The notes beneath the pieces are model-generated. The model ran no database searches, was not told where the DNA came from, and saw only the letters and a list, made by a program, of their open reading frames with translations. Made by a program: the position numbers and the translations under genes. Of a DNA stretch of 64,000 bases, positions 6,630-22,701 are shown one piece after another. This DNA comes from Verrucomicrobium sp. BvORR106 (GTDB lineage: Bacteria > Verrucomicrobiota > Verrucomicrobiia > Verrucomicrobiales > Verrucomicrobiaceae): positions 1 through 64,000 of the forward strand of contig NZ_BATR01000087.1 of assembly GCF_000739655.1 (NCBI RefSeq). Direction: 5' to 3'. Numbering within the stretch: position 1 is the stretch's first letter; each line of letters begins with the position of its first letter.

Positions 6630-6806
6630 GATGATTGAAAGGGGGCGTAGGGTGGTGGTCGGGTTTGAGTGGGCCCGGGTGGTTTCCCTCATGGGGTGGT
6701 GCGGTGGTGTGCAAAAGACAAGACCGCCAGCCATCCGGGCTGAATGCGTGGATGCATGAAGAGCCACCTCCGTTTGTACGGTCAGCTTCAATTCACATCG
6801 AATTAG

Positions 6807-6815
6807 TGTAGATTA
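6807..6815. promoter_or_regulatory. Possible half-site TGTAGATTA upstream of the carbonic anhydrase-metY pair
   Basis: The nonamer TGTAGATTA is identical to the half-site of the inverted repeat in front of the encapsulin gene and shares its first eight bases with the site in front of the Rrf2 gene. It sits about 178 bases upstream of the carbonic anhydrase start. The rest of the 25-bp motif is not conserved here, so this may be chance. Confidence 0.25.
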
Positions 6816-10089: not shown

Positions 10090-11970
10090 TCAGTTTCGGG
10101 GCAGATCGTGCAGGGCTTCGATGAGGTAGTCGATTTCGGCAAACGTGTTGTAGAAGGCCACCGACGGCCGCACCGTGCCTTCCACGCCAAAATGGCGCAA
10201 GGCAGGCAGGGCGCAATGATGACCTGCCCGGACTGCGATGCCGCGCTGGTCCAGGTGATCGGCGATCCGCTTGATGGGAACGCCCGGGATGACGAAGCCA
10301 AAGACGCTGGCCTTGTTGAACGCCGTGCCGATGGGGCGCACGCCGGGCACGGTGGCCAGGGCCTCCGTGGCGTACTCCAGAAGCGAGTGTTCATAAGCGG
10401 CGATGCCGGGGATGCCGGTGCGCATGAGGTAGTCCACCGCTGCACCAAGACCCACCACACCTGCGATGTCCGGTGTACCTGCCTCGAACTTCTCCGGGGC
10501 GTGGTTGTACACCGTCTTCTCAAACGTGACGTCCTGGATCATGTGCCCGCCTCCCTGCCAAGGCGGCATGGCCTCCAGCAGATGCGACTTGCCATAGAGC
10601 GCGCCGATGCCCGTGGGGCCGAAGACCTTGTGCCCTGAGAAGACAAGGAAGTCCGCGTCCAGCGCCTGCACGTTCACCGGCAGGTGCGGGGTGGACTGCG
10701 CCCCGTCCACCAGCACCGGGACTCCCCGGCTGTGGGCGATGGCGATAATTTCCTCGACCGGGTTGATCGTGCCCAGCGCGTTCGATACCTGGGTGATGGA
10801 GACGATCTTGGTCTTGCTGTTGATGAGCCGCGGCACCTCTTCCAGCAGCAGCTCACCGCGGTCATTCATGGGAATGACGCGCAGGTTCGCCCCCACCTGG
10901 CGGGCCAGGAGCTGCCAGGGCACGATGTTCGCGTGGTGCTCCATCTCAGACACGAGGATCTCATCCCCGGCCCCGATGTTCTGCCGCCCGTAGCTCTGCG
11001 CCACGAGGTTGATGCCCTCCGTCGTGCCCCGGACAAAGACGATCTCCTTCTTGTCCGCCGCGCCCAGGAACTGGCGCACCTTCTCACGGCTGGCTTCGAA
11101 GAGCTTCGTGGAACGTTCTGCCAGGGCATGAGCCGCCCGGTGGATGTTGGAGTTGTCCCGCCCGTAGAAGGACGAGGTGGCATCGATCACGCTCTGCGGC
11201 TTGTGCGTCGTGGCCGCGTTGTCCAGCCAGATGAGCGGATGCCCGTTCACCCGCTGGTGCAGCGCGGGGAAATCCCGGCGCACGCTCGTCACGTCGAACT
11301 CCTTCGAGAGCGGCGGGGCGGTCACCTTCGGCAGGCCGGAGGCCACCAACGGGGAGTCAGAGCCACGCAGTCCTTCTAGGAAATAAAGGCCTGGAAGACC
11401 GCTCTCCGTCGGCGCTTCATCCCGCGGTGTGGCGTGATCGCCACCCGAGCGGGTCAGCACGCGATTGGGCGAGCCGTCGCTGTTCCCCGTGATGCGGGGT
11501 GAGAAAGACGTGCCCTGATTGCGGGGTTCGCCAAACTCATACGAGTCATCCTCACCCGCCTCATGCCCGCCCGAGTCCAGCTCGTTGGAGGCCTGGTGCG
11601 AGTTTGGCTCCGCCGCCACCACCGTGGGGTGCACGGGCGGCGGCGCGCTGGAGGAGGAGGCAGAGGGGAATCCGCCGTTCAGCCCGTTGGCCGACTTGGG
11701 TTCAGAAGTAGGTTTTGACTCCTGAACCGGTGCCGCCGCGGCCCCGAAGGGATCCGACGGCAGCCAGGGCAAATGCGCCCCGGACCCCGCCACAGTCTGC
11801 GGCAGGGAGGCGGGTGCATTTGCTTGCGGAGCAGCCTTCACGGGGCCTCCATCGCGAAAAGCCTCACTGACGAGGCGCGAGATGAGGTCCGTGTCCACCC
11901 CGTCCCTGCCCACGGCGCCAAAGAGGCCGTCAGGCAGAGGAAGATCGAGGTCAGGCCTTGGCTGCGTCAT
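10090..11970 (-). CDS. Cysteine desulfurase (SufS-type) with long disordered N-terminal extension; encapsulin cargo
   Basis: The 626-residue protein has two parts. Residues about 226-626 are a complete group II (SufS-like) cysteine desulfurase: WLDNAATTHKPQ, SEMEHHANIVPWQ, DGAQSTPHL, PLP Lys448 in VFSGHKVFGPTG, and catalytic Cys586 in RAGHHCALPALRHFG. Residues 1-225 are low-complexity (Ser, Pro, Ala, Gly, Asp/Glu), with three hydrophobic islands: DTDLISRLVSEAFRDGG (27-42), AHLPWLPSDPFGAA (65-78) and GLPGLYFLEGLRG (191-203). Such an extension is the known mark of family 2A encapsulin cargo desulfurases, where it directs loading into the shell. The gene overlaps the shell gene by 20 bases. It would strip sulfur from cysteine to yield alanine and enzyme persulfide, feeding sulfur storage or the rhodanese. 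The catalytic domain is intact and the cargo role rests on context and architecture. Confidence 0.93.
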   Translation of the reverse strand: MTQPRPDLDLPLPDGLFGAVGRDGVDTDLISRLVSEAFRDGGPVKAAPQANAPASLPQTVAGSGAHLPWLPSDPFGAAAAPVQESKPTSEPKSANGLNGGFPSASSSSAPPPVHPTVVAAEPNSHQASNELDSGGHEAGEDDSYEFGEPRNQGTSFSPRITGNSDGSPNRVLTRSGGDHATPRDEAPTESGLPGLYFLEGLRGSDSPLVASGLPKVTAPPLSKEFDVTSVRRDFPALHQRVNGHPLIWLDNAATTHKPQSVIDATSSFYGRDNSNIHRAAHALAERSTKLFEASREKVRQFLGAADKKEIVFVRGTTEGINLVAQSYGRQNIGAGDEILVSEMEHHANIVPWQLLARQVGANLRVIPMNDRGELLLEEVPRLINSKTKIVSITQVSNALGTINPVEEIIAIAHSRGVPVLVDGAQSTPHLPVNVQALDADFLVFSGHKVFGPTGIGALYGKSHLLEAMPPWQGGGHMIQDVTFEKTVYNHAPEKFEAGTPDIAGVVGLGAAVDYLMRTGIPGIAAYEHSLLEYATEALATVPGVRPIGTAFNKASVFGFVIPGVPIKRIADHLDQRGIAVRAGHHCALPALRHFGVEGTVRPSVAFYNTFAEIDYLIEALHDLPRN

Positions 11971-12886
11971 ACTCGTGATAGCGGTTCACGGCCACATCAT
12001 CCAGGCGGGCGATTGCGTCTTCACCCAGCACAGCGGCGGAGAAGTAGCGGGTCACCAGGTGGGAGGCGATGGAGTTCTCGTTCGTGCCCATGTAGCGCAC
12101 GGAAAGGCCGGGCTCGATCTCGCCCGTCACGCCCGCCTTCTGCAGGCCCACGACGCCGCGGTGGTTCTCACCCACGCGCAGGAGCAGCACACTGGTCTTG
12201 CCTTCTTCGCTGATCGGGATCTTGCTGCTCGGGATGAGCGGCAGGCCGCGCCAGGTGATGAAGGGCGAGCCAAAGAGCGTCACAGTCGGTGGCGGCACAC
12301 CACGGCGGGTGGCTTCACGGCCAAAGGCGGCCACGGCCTTGGGGTGCGCGAGGAAGAAGGCGGGCTTCTTCCAGACGAGGCTGATCAGTTCGTCCAGGTC
12401 ATCCGGCGTCACGGTGCCCTTGCGGGTCACGATGCGCTGCTGCGGCGCCACCACATTGAGCAGGCCCACATTGGCGTGGTTAAGCAGTTCCCACTCCTCA
12501 CGCTCCTTCACCGCTTCCACCGTCAGACGCACCTGCTCGCGAAGCTGGTCGATCTTGTTGCTGTAGAGATCCGTCACCCGGGTGTGCGTGTGCAGCACCG
12601 TCTGGATGGTGTTCAGGTGGTACTCATGCGGATCATCTTCATAATCCACAAACGTCGAGGGCAGCTTCGGCTCGCCGGTTTCCACCGTCAGGAGGTCCAC
12701 GGTGGGGCCGTCCTGGCGCTGGAGCACGCGGTTCACGCGATAGACACCGCCGTCCACATCCACATAGGGAAGGAGTTTAAGGAGCCAACGCGGCGTGATC
12801 TCCTGCCATTGCGGCGGGGTGACGGTGGCGGTGGCGAGGTTGCGCGCCGCCCGGGCGCTCAGGGTGAGTTGATTGGTGTCGCTCAT
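11951..12886 (-). CDS. srpI: Family 2A encapsulin shell protein (SrpI type, HK97 fold)
   Basis: The 311-residue protein resembles the SrpI/family 2A encapsulins. It has an N-terminal arm with LSARAARNLATATVTPPQW, ITPRWLLKLLPYVDVDGGVY, then RVNRVL, DYEDDPHEYHLNTIQTVL, HTHTRVTDLYSNKIDQL, a long helix (TVEAVKEREEWELLNHANVG) and a C-terminal SIASHLVTRYFSAAVLGEDA. In the known systems these HK97-fold subunits assemble into nanocompartments of tens of nanometres that enclose a cysteine desulfurase. There is no CBD insertion, so it is the 2A rather than the 2B type. It heads the operon with the cargo gene overlapping its 3' end. A 25-bp motif shared with the Rrf2 gene upstream region lies 71-95 bases before the ATG. 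Older annotations may call this family a major membrane protein or phage capsid; no phage genes are nearby. Confidence 0.95.
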   Translation of the reverse strand: MSDTNQLTLSARAARNLATATVTPPQWQEITPRWLLKLLPYVDVDGGVYRVNRVLQRQDGPTVDLLTVETGEPKLPSTFVDYEDDPHEYHLNTIQTVLHTHTRVTDLYSNKIDQLREQVRLTVEAVKEREEWELLNHANVGLLNVVAPQQRIVTRKGTVTPDDLDELISLVWKKPAFFLAHPKAVAAFGREATRRGVPPPTVTLFGSPFITWRGLPLIPSSKIPISEEGKTSVLLLRVGENHRGVVGLQKAGVTGEIEPGLSVRYMGTNENSIASHLVTRYFSAAVLGEDAIARLDDVAVNRYHEYDAAKA

Positions 12887-12956: not shown

Positions 12957-12981
12957 TCAATATGTAGAGTTGTAATCTACA
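12957..12981 (-). promoter_or_regulatory. Candidate operator upstream of the encapsulin operon
   Basis: A 19-base inverted repeat, TGTAGAGTTGTAATCTACA on the plus strand, occupies 12963-12981. Read on the coding (minus) strand and extended to 25 bases, 19 positions match the sequence immediately upstream of the Rrf2 gene (22636-22660): TGTAGATT, AACT, TA, A and ATTG are held in register. The inverted repeat here is perfect for six bases per arm. Location, symmetry and sharing with a local regulator gene make it a plausible Rrf2 binding site; binding is inferred only. Confidence 0.5.
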
Positions 12982-13041
12982 GTGGGGCAGTGGGGAAAGA
13001 GAGGGAAGAGGGGTAAGGGAGAAGGGAAGAGGGAGGGGAAT

Positions 13042-13335
13042 GGGAACCACTGATGGACACTGATGAATGCAGGGGAAATGGAGTGGCGGAGTGTTGGAGT
13101 GATGGAGAGAAGGGAACCGCTGACGGACGCTGACTCGACGCTAATGAATGCAGGATGAGGAACTGAATGATGAGGTGCCTGGATCAGTTTGAAGCTGTTC
13201 GCAGTACAAACTTTAGTTTGCTCAGTCGATCAGGAGTAAGGCGTCCTGAGCAAACTAAAGTTTGAACTGCAAACAAAGCCTCGCAGGCGGGGCTCAGGGT
13301 TGAAGTTTGGCGTTTGAATTTTGAAGTTTGCACTT
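13042..13335. repeat. Composite intergenic repeat (family E), copy 2, inverted relative to copy 1
   Basis: The 663 bases between the encapsulin gene and the sulfate-binding protein gene hold no gene but carry this block. It matches 3755-4046 in reverse complement with the same order of parts: ACCACTGATGG...GATGAATGCAGG, AACCGCTGACGGACGCTGA, a long palindrome (13195-13276, arms TACAAACTTTAGTTTGCTCA and TGAGCAAACTAAAGTTTG), the GCCTCGCAGGCGGGGCTCAGG linker, and a TTTGAAGTTTG direct-repeat tract. The palindrome loops differ between copies while the arms are conserved. Confidence 0.85.
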
Positions 13336-21519: not shown

Positions 21520-21839
21520 GCGGTTGTTGTTGTGCTGATTAACTTGAGGGATGCGGCGGCTCCGGGGTTCCGGTGGCACACAAGCGCGTACTGGCTCTGG
21601 TTGATGCCTCCGGGGATGCGGTCGGCAAGGACGTCAAGGTCTGAACTTACTGTCTGGGAGTGGAGGTAACAGTGAACACACAGGCGTCGTGGGACGCTTC
21701 GGCAGGCACTGTTTGTTTCCTTGAAACCTCCGGTATTCCGGTCAGTCCCTTGGTGCGCGGGCTAAGTATTTTTGCCGCGCTAATTATGAATCAACAAACG
21801 GTCAACTGGCTGTCTTGAGAAGGATCGGGCATGGCGGGA
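21520..21839. other. Intergenic region upstream of the porin
   Basis: No gene is seen in these 320 bases. They hold a CCGGTATTCCGG palindrome near 21727-21739 and an AT-rich stretch near 21765-21795 that may carry the promoter of the sulfate operon. The encapsulin-type 25-bp motif was not found here by eye. Confidence 0.5.
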
Positions 21840-22045: not shown

Positions 22046-22633
22046 TTAGAGAGGGTTCTGAGGTTTGGTGAGAAGCGTGAGAAAACCGTCGAGAGGATCC
22101 GCATGTCGCACGCGGCTGGGTTTGGTAACTCGTTGGGTGGTTTTACTCTTGGCAGGCTTTTCAGGTTCGGCTTCGAAGGGCAGTTGCACGCCGTCTCGCT
22201 CCATCTTGCGGAGGGTGACGGAGACGACATCCGCCAGTGTGTATCGGTCGAGGATCTGGGCGATGGCATTGCGCACATCAATCATCAGCATCCGGAGACC
22301 GCAGTGGTGCTCGTCGGGACACGTACATCGTTCGTAGTCTGTCTCACTCGCACATCCGATCGGGGCCAGCCGGCCGTCGATAAGACGAACCACTTCACCG
22401 ATCGTAATCTCCACTTGGGGCTTGGCCAGGCGGCATCCGCCCTCCTTGCCTCTCTTGCTTTCCACATAACCAGCCAGTCGCAGTTCTTGAAGAATGTTTT
22501 CAATGAACTTGAACGGCAGGTTCTCGCCCTCAGCCAAATTGGAGACGGACACGACATCCTTGCCCTGCCGCTGAGCAATGCCCAATCGGATAAGGGTTCG
22601 GAGGGCATATTCGCCTTTTTTGGTGAGGTGCAT
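22046..22633 (-). CDS. Rrf2-family transcriptional regulator of sulfur genes (CymR/IscR-like)
   Basis: From ATG 22633 the protein has 195 residues. The N-terminal winged helix shows LTKKGEYALRTLIRLG, VSVSNLAEGENLPFKFIENI and LQELRLAGYVESKRGKEGG, which is the Rrf2 signature. The effector segment contains Cys94, Cys103, Cys105 and Cys111 in the stretch GCASETDYERCTCPDEHHCG, so an iron-sulfur cluster or thiol sensing is possible, although the spacing differs from IscR (C-x5-C-x5-C-x2-H). A lysine-rich tail follows residue 160. Related CymR proteins repress cysteine and sulfate genes when cysteine is ample. The 25-bp motif just upstream (22636-22660) recurs before the encapsulin gene, pointing to autoregulation and control of the nanocompartment. 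Confidence 0.88.
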   Translation of the reverse strand: MHLTKKGEYALRTLIRLGIAQRQGKDVVSVSNLAEGENLPFKFIENILQELRLAGYVESKRGKEGGCRLAKPQVEITIGEVVRLIDGRLAPIGCASETDYERCTCPDEHHCGLRMLMIDVRNAIAQILDRYTLADVVSVTLRKMERDGVQLPFEAEPEKPAKSKTTQRVTKPSRVRHADPLDGFLTLLTKPQNPL

Positions 22634-22635
22634 GC

Positions 22636-22660
22636 GCAATCTATAAAGTTCCAATCTACA
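22636..22660 (-). promoter_or_regulatory. Candidate Rrf2 operator at the Rrf2 gene start
   Basis: On the minus strand this site begins TGTAGATTGGAACTTTATAG and ends ATTGC. It agrees with the encapsulin upstream site at 19 of 25 positions. It ends two bases before the ATG, a position from which a bound repressor could block transcription or ribosome access, as expected for autoregulation. Confidence 0.5.
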
Positions 22661-22669
22661 TAGCGCAAG

Positions 22670-22701
22670 TAGGAATTGAAATAAATGTGCATGTATTCCT
22701 A
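22670..22701. promoter_or_regulatory. Inverted repeat TAGGAAT-N18-ATTCCTA upstream of the Rrf2 gene
   Basis: TAGGAAT (22670-22676) and ATTCCTA (22695-22701) are perfect reverse complements 18 bases apart, in the AT-rich stretch about 40-70 bases upstream of the Rrf2 start. It could be a second operator or lie within the promoter. Confidence 0.35.

Follow-up and report, generated by a model that had tools for sequence, protein, structure and literature searches.

A conserved 25-bp operator of a putative Rrf2-type sulfur regulator, a half-site before the encapsulin genes and a recurrent leader hairpin in Verrucomicrobium and its relatives

The window considered here (the whole 64,000-nucleotide stretch that was analysed) belongs to an 8.69 Mb genome of the Verrucomicrobiaceae, and from the Rrf2 regulator gene (start at 22633) down to metY (4698) all of the genes considered lie on the minus strand (Table 1). 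The gene order from rrf2 onward is: Porin_O_P porin – two sulfate-binding proteins – CysK – AstE/AspA-type protein – CysT – CysW – CysA, followed on the same strand by a family 2A encapsulin shell, a desulfurase cargo, a rhodanese, an EpsC-type serine acetyltransferase, a second cysteine synthase, a carbonic anhydrase and MetY. One of the two sulfate-binding proteins was tested against protein models; the names CysA, CysT and CysW are our reading of the open reading frames. The shell gene is presumed to be the first of an operon that includes the cysteine desulfurase cargo, the rhodanese, the serine acetyltransferase and the cysteine synthase. With the family 2A cargo model NF041166 the desulfurase scores 774.8 bits, just under the cut-off of 800, its SufS-type domain being above its own cut-off, and it may nevertheless function as cargo. 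A perfect 19+19 inverted repeat of CAAACTTTAGTTTGCTCAG (13207-13225 and 13246-13264), possibly a terminator, also lies between the sulfate-binding protein gene and the encapsulin gene.

Table 1. Positions of the features discussed, numbered from the first letter of the window
Feature	Position	Strand	Basis or remark
Leader hairpin of carbonic anhydrase-metY	6762..6788	-	R2 28.2 bits; training row
Operator-like, near-palindromic site of carbonic anhydrase-metY, AATTCACATCGAATTAGTGTAGATT, without TTG core	6790..6814	+	Second or third best matrix score in the window
Family 2A encapsulin shell	11951..12886	-	NF041162 461.8 bits (cut-off 380); PF19307
Encapsulin 25-mer: right half TGTAGATT, then -10-like TACATAT (12960-12966)	12957..12981	-	Read from the sequence
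Perfect inverted repeat TGTAGA-N7-TCTACA	12963..12981	.	N9 in sister species G001
Encapsulin upstream in operator register, TTTCCCCACTGCCCCACTGTAGATT, without TTG core	12974..12998	-	Second or third best matrix score in the window
Leader hairpin 2 of porin-Sbp operon	21602..21628	-	R2 29.0 bits; training row
Leader hairpin 1 of porin-Sbp operon	21722..21748	-	R2 29.8 bits; training row
Rrf2 regulator, cysteines 94, 103, 105 and 111 invariant	22046..22633	-	Pfam PF02082 1.3e-35
Rrf2 25-mer: operator right half TGTAGATT plus -10 region	22636..22660	-	Sequence comparison with orthologs
-10-like TATAGAT, 5 bases before the Rrf2 ATG	22639..22645	-	By eye
Canonical Rrf2 operator AATTCCTACTTGCGCTATGTAGATT	22653..22677	-	Recognisable at 27/30 Rrf2 ortholog loci
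TTGCGC as -35 box within the operator, 17 bases from the -10	22663..22668	-	By eye; inferred from spacing

To our knowledge, how family 2A encapsulins are switched on has been little studied outside cyanobacteria. The shell of the window is of the same family as SrpI of Synechococcus elongatus, with a desulfurase cargo that here falls just short of its cut-off. The S. elongatus encapsulin is induced by sulfur starvation (PMC8049743, in the parts used here), and in the corresponding parts of PMC8346489 serine acetyltransferase and rhodanese genes neighbour family 2A encapsulins, as they do in the window. The examined parts of both papers name no encapsulin regulator, and in their main texts the words Rrf2 and Verrucomicrobi are absent. 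In the open-licence PMC literature, as far as its texts were examined, encapsulin and Rrf2 occur together only in a review on iron, and an examined text combining encapsulin with Verrucomicrobi concerns microcompartments.

A sequence-only reading of the window had proposed that a 25-bp operator links the encapsulin operon to the Rrf2 gene. The letters and coordinates of that proposal are correct: the minus-strand sequences 12981-12957 (TGTAGATTACAACTCTACATATTGA) and 22660-22636 (TGTAGATTGGAACTTTATAGATTGC) are identical at 19 of 25 positions, the second of them ends two bases before the ATG, the first contains a perfect 6+6 inverted repeat, and the nonamer TGTAGATTA, reported as a further occurrence, is indeed present at 6807-6815. 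This pair of 25-mers is the best of its kind in the window, the next best reaching 16/25. The 19 shared bases, used as a pattern with up to three mismatches, occur at only these two places in the entire genome, a result that is circular in that the pattern was built from both; as a whole-genome scan it yielded zero further sites. The bare 19/25 match is at chance level, because dinucleotide-shuffled upstream regions reach at least 19/25 against the Rrf2 upstream region in 18 of 200 trials; among 25 upstream regions, shuffling leads one to expect 1.15 any-to-any pairs at 19/25. What raises the match slightly above chance is that TGTAGATT aligns in register with the right half of the conserved operator described below.

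As an operator in its own right the 25-mer fails: its Rrf2 copy resolves into the right half of the operator plus the -10 box, the conserved element being placed 17 bases further upstream. The consensus of this element, which is 25 bp long and overlaps the -35 box, is AATTCCTACTTG-N4-RTGTAGATT. Of 57 genomes, the own included, 56 contain Rrf2 relatives (some of them only distant paralogs), with loci returned for 30 places. All 30 keep both T of the TTG core and 29 keep the G, although the sites were chosen as the best consensus match near the start codon, a choice that favours agreement. Our operator alignment consists of these 30 promoters less the weaker L035, L037 and L040, the last having TTA where the others have TTG, plus one cysK site of G024. 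At the Rrf2 promoter of the window the operator features of the clade are both present, namely the left half ATTCCTACTTG with its TTG and, after it, RTGTAGATT. When up to three mismatches are allowed, the full operator is found at one place in the own genome.

The -10-like box of the Rrf2 promoter reads TATACAT in G001, G003 and G007 and TATATAT in G016. The distance of 5 bases between this box and the ATG (22631-22645, minus strand) is also seen in two orthologs of the same genus, and the box is similarly close in G016 and G007. Its end so near to the ATG leads to the prediction that the rrf2 mRNA might be leaderless.

With respect to its protein sequence, the regulator belongs to the Rrf2 superfamily (PF02082, 122.8 bits with a cut-off of 30; TIGR00738, 113.5 bits with a cut-off of 73.3) and stays under all of the listed equivalog cut-offs: CymR (NF047409, 75.3 bits versus 195), IscR (66.2 versus 207.55), NsrR (60.3 versus 182) and RirA (73.9 versus 193). 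CymR is the Rrf2-family master regulator of cysteine metabolism in Bacillus and Staphylococcus. It resembles the protein of the window in its Rrf2 fold and sulfur regulon, in sequence its chains are among the nearest of the solved structures, and its equivalog model is the best-scoring one; the window protein, however, falls far under the CymR cut-off and has four invariant cysteines, Cys94, 103, 105 and 111, which are kept in 28/28 aligned sequences (own included; 28 of the 30, with L031 and L033 left out). The Fe-S cluster regulators IscR, NsrR and RirA have the same fold, operators of 23-29 bp and a cysteine cluster in what we take, from the placement in IscR, to be the same protein region, but our protein is below each of their cut-offs and the targets here are sulfur uptake and cysteine genes. 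The four cysteines suggest that the regulator may sense an Fe-S cluster or the thiol state. CymR of B. subtilis, by contrast, is reported to lack an Fe-S cluster (PMC9338935, in the part used here).

The operator also recurs before sulfur genes in relatives. In 42 of the 57 genomes, counting the own, R1, a sequence model of this element, has matches at E<=3, and 40 stretches with matches away from Rrf2 starts were examined; genes of sulfur-operon kinds follow in 32 of these (translations read by eye), seven have no sulfur gene (L106, L108-L111, L116 and L117), and in one, L081, counted among the 33 non-Rrf2 matrix sites, the gene assignment is doubtful. The weaker R1 matches among the 57 genomes are mostly outside these stretches. 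The sulfur genes so preceded are a porin followed by a sulfate-binding protein, a porin followed by SsuA, an SsuB-like ATPase, CysK, AstE-TauE and CysH-CysD. Ten proteins from six stretches were checked by Pfam and five of the ten also by NCBIfam. Sbp, SsuA and CysD are above NCBIfam cut-offs; the PAPS reductase, TauE and the PLP enzyme are above Pfam cut-offs; CysH is above the Pfam and under the NCBIfam cut-offs; the SsuB-like ATPase is under the cut-offs of its listed models; and the porins are by Pfam only Porin_O_P or Alginate_exp. A predicted Rrf2 sulfur regulon is well supported by this position of the operator in relatives (before porin-Sbp, SsuA, CysK and CysH-CysD), and the Rrf2 gene itself lies among sulfur genes, which the operators indicate that it would control. 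No Rrf2 sulfur-assimilation regulon for Verrucomicrobiota was found in the open-licence PMC literature, and what is given here is a concrete operator, a predicted regulon and a corrected site to test.

For the own genome the regulon is thinly shown. R1 yields a single match there at E<=10, the Rrf2 operator, and at this level misses the operator before the own cysH, which was located via a gene search (ATTTCCTACTTGTCATATCGGGAAA; scores of 15.2, 20.5 and 19.0 with three matrices). Since R1 missed this site, the low own-genome count is no proof of a small regulon.

In 58 operator sites from other genera (24 Rrf2 promoters and 34 others), T10, T11, G12 and T18 are identical in 58/58. The invariance of the TTG is partly by construction, most sites away from Rrf2 having been found with R1, which itself contains TTG, and this core may be a -35 box rather than a protein contact. 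Alternatively, the operator could belong to a different transcription factor, Rrf2 being then one target of several. The attribution of binding to Rrf2 itself, rather than to another factor, is drawn from the autoregulatory position only, and part of the operator's conservation is that of the promoter because the two overlap at the -35 box. Against this stand the presence of a recognisable operator at the Rrf2 start in 27 of the 30 ortholog loci, as autoregulation predicts, and a length of 25 bp that suits Rrf2 dimers (23-bp NsrR site, 29-bp IscR fragment; PMC9338935, same part). We consider a different factor quite improbable.

A matrix made from other genera only gives, as the top three of the window, the Rrf2 operator (38.6), the carbonic anhydrase-metY site (14.9) and the encapsulin site in operator register (14.0). 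Depending on the matrix, the encapsulin upstream comes second or third among about 128,000 positions. With the matrix of the 33 non-Rrf2 sites the values for this pair of sites are 14.9 and 9.8, and with all 58 sites 12.7 and 10.7. Local shuffles reach the encapsulin score in 5 of 2000 cases, this place being the best in the encapsulin upstream, and 0.5 places scoring at least 13 are expected per 64-kb shuffled window (six shuffles). The encapsulin site has the right half and lacks the TTG core: T10 and T18 are kept, positions 10-12 are T, G and C (i.e. the TG at 11-12 is missing), and the left half falls in a CT-rich stretch. In the sister species G001, TGTAGATT is kept, the encapsulin site scores 12.4, the spacing of the dyad changes from N7 to N9 and the best ungapped 25-mer match is 18/25.

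The site could perhaps still be a working weak operator, the Rrf2 protein binding TGTAGATT and its inverted partner TCTACA and so repressing the encapsulin operon. The register of TGTAGATT, the score of 14.0 at 5/2000 local shuffles, the retention in G001 and a spacing to the -10-like box that is the same as at Rrf2 all speak for this, but the missing TTG core, the N7 versus N9 spacing and the 0.5 such places expected by chance speak against it, and we regard it as rather unlikely. Alternatively, the perfect inverted repeat might be the site of another regulator, as its perfection and its being the single exact copy of TGTAGA-N7-TCTACA in the genome could indicate; its spacing is not kept in G001, however, and a genome-wide family of this dyad was rejected for want of enrichment (70 places within two mismatches versus 212 for the reversed control), which makes another regulator very improbable. 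We read the encapsulin site as most likely a half-site that has degenerated or arisen by accident, and not as a working operator; at best it is a weak half-site.

A comparable site precedes carbonic anhydrase-metY, and here the suggestion that methionine genes belong to the regulon fares somewhat better. None of 2000 local shuffles reaches its score of 14.9, and in G001 it keeps 24/25 letters amid diverged flanks, scoring 21.0 there; on this comparison it is better conserved than the encapsulin site. Its right half is present, with T18; none of positions 10-12 is kept, so the TTG core is absent. A conserved operator-like site thus does precede these genes, but not the canonical operator of the clade.

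Encapsulin loci of other genomes were also compared. The closest named relative is Verrucomicrobium sp. BvORR034, whose shell is 97% identical to that of the window, and the encapsulin sequence is common to the sister species G001. The shell gene is patchy, being present in 8 of 68 genomes of the family. Two short peptide patterns run over genome contigs gave 26 encapsulin loci, all but one in records whose titles we take, from general knowledge, to denote Verrucomicrobiota; the exception is titled Bacteroidetes bacterium. Together with loci from relatives, and after a check for duplicates, there are 30 distinct loci. Only in the window and in G001 does TGTAGATT occur within 500 bases upstream of the shell; in the other 28 it is absent within that distance, the best match to either 25-mer being 16/25, and this too tells against a working weak operator. 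The claimed Rrf2 regulon is thus upheld for the sulfur genes, with operators before them in relatives, and not for encapsulin, with its missing TTG core and a site in 2/30 loci. More favourable to a weak operator are two species of another genus, G024 (Brevifollis gellanilyticus contig, L126) and G025, which have canonical operators (scores 20.5 and 19.1) at distances of about 0.71 and 0.76 kb from encapsulin on its upstream side, each preceding a small same-strand HTH gene. An Rrf2-encapsulin link in relatives might therefore run through a different site.

Small HTH genes precede encapsulin in three related genomes (L126:9323-9901 +, L044:6460-6948 +, L123:2940-3248 +), two of them with the canonical Rrf2 operator; the G024 product and the related L123 product match HTH_29 of Pfam, the G025 copy lying outside the scan. 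The shell genes of G014 and G004 (L046 and L047) are broken by a stop or frame change, and their operon neighbours persist. In L048 (G003, same genus) the Rrf2-sulfate operon and metY are kept and the shell is absent, and the 19.5 kb examined there gave no match to carbonic anhydrase, a pattern that looks as if the cassette had been gained or lost.

The leaders of the sulfur operons of Verrucomicrobiia repeatedly show a second element, the hairpin C[CT]GACC-N8-GGAGG[CT] (CYGACC-N8-GGAGGY). Among 26 aligned hairpins the third inner base pair forms in 26/26, with five pair types, and 25 cells change on both sides versus 6.7 in shuffles; the alignment leaves out L021:301 (third inner pair unformed), L128:20623 (gene unassigned) and near-copies from G001 and G014. 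In the own genome, model R2 gives 21 matches at E<=10, five of them of at least 22 bits: two before the porin, one before carbonic anhydrase-metY and two before no evident sulfur gene. R2 finds no hairpin in the encapsulin leader of the window. R2 has 46 matches in 33 sources that contain sulfur or encapsulin loci, and for 31 of them a sulfur gene of the kinds in the window begins within 420 bases downstream. Training rows make up 23 of the 46; 17 of the other 23 are so placed, including two G001 near-copies and one duplicate place. The remaining 15 matches are found before a porin (one, by reading) or, in several cases, before haloperoxidase-like or other genes. At 14 of the 30 distinct encapsulin loci the hairpin precedes encapsulin by 73-210 bases; two of these 14 are weak (L131 and L141) and six are training rows.

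Wider searches gave a similar picture. R2 matches 35 of 57 genomes, own included, at E<=0.05, many of the weaker matches resembling chance by reading. In a less biased test on 141 genomes of the class, nine besides the own have matches at E<=5e-4, six of which head sulfur operons and three of which do not. The six consist of four porin genes with homologs of Sbp and CysT after them (one porin Pfam-tested), one sulfate-binding protein (Pfam, NCBIfam) and one cysteine-synthase-like PLP enzyme (Pfam), the last followed, by reading, by CysT-like and MetY-like genes. Searches of Rfam 15 revealed no relevant family: 143,850 bases at the gathering level gave two tRNAs only, the porin leader gave nothing up to E 5, and six hairpin loci gave only mir-2545 and H19_2, both below cut-off. 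The open-licence PMC literature yielded no Verrucomicrobia RNA motif or riboswitch tied to sulfate.

Several readings of the leader were set aside. Folding of the porin leader into one large structure is unconvincing (z -1.68, with 12 of 200 shuffles folding as well), leaving only the small hairpin supported; an intrinsic terminator was dismissed by eye, no T run following the copies inspected; and a leader-peptide start codon right after GGAGG is not general among the hairpins.

In view of all this, the best overall explanation, to which we assign a probability of roughly two in three, is that this Verrucomicrobium-like bacterium has the Rrf2 protein as its local sulfur regulator, acting through the 25-bp operator, that encapsulin has only a half-site and that the hairpin is a recurrent element of sulfur operons. 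The protein would bind the operator over the -35 box of its own promoter and, since the two overlap, would repress it; in relatives it would likewise act as a repressor at promoters for the uptake of sulfate and sulfonate and for CysK and CysH-CysD, perhaps in response to an Fe-S cluster or the thiol state sensed through its four cysteines. The encapsulin promoter has in common with this system only the right half of the operator and, equally spaced, a -10-like box, and the hairpin recurs in sulfur operons and in many encapsulin operons of other Verrucomicrobiota, the own encapsulin operon being without it. The Rrf2 sulfur operator is real and conserved; it was correctly suspected and wrongly placed, and the leader hairpin is the more novel element.

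More tentatively, at a little under even odds, we suggest that the sulfur operons of Verrucomicrobiia are under two-level control: at the promoter by an Rrf2 repressor rich in cysteine, and in the leader by CYGACC-N8-GGAGGY, an undescribed RNA hairpin acting in cis. Of the two signals, it is the RNA that would be more widely conserved in encapsulin operons, and the hairpin could be a sulfur-responsive element that binds a small molecule or a protein. The covarying hairpin ties together the encapsulin, sulfate uptake, cysteine and methionine operons of the class, and both it and the operator are directly testable. Copies of the hairpin occur at L125:9821, L132:9797, L207:1505 and other places as well. 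In other Verrucomicrobiota it is also found before a conserved secreted protein (L132:17034, L136:14353, L141:1712 and L146:4759), which we take to be vanadium-haloperoxidase-like, and at L141:3895 before a gene that is presumably sulfatase-like.
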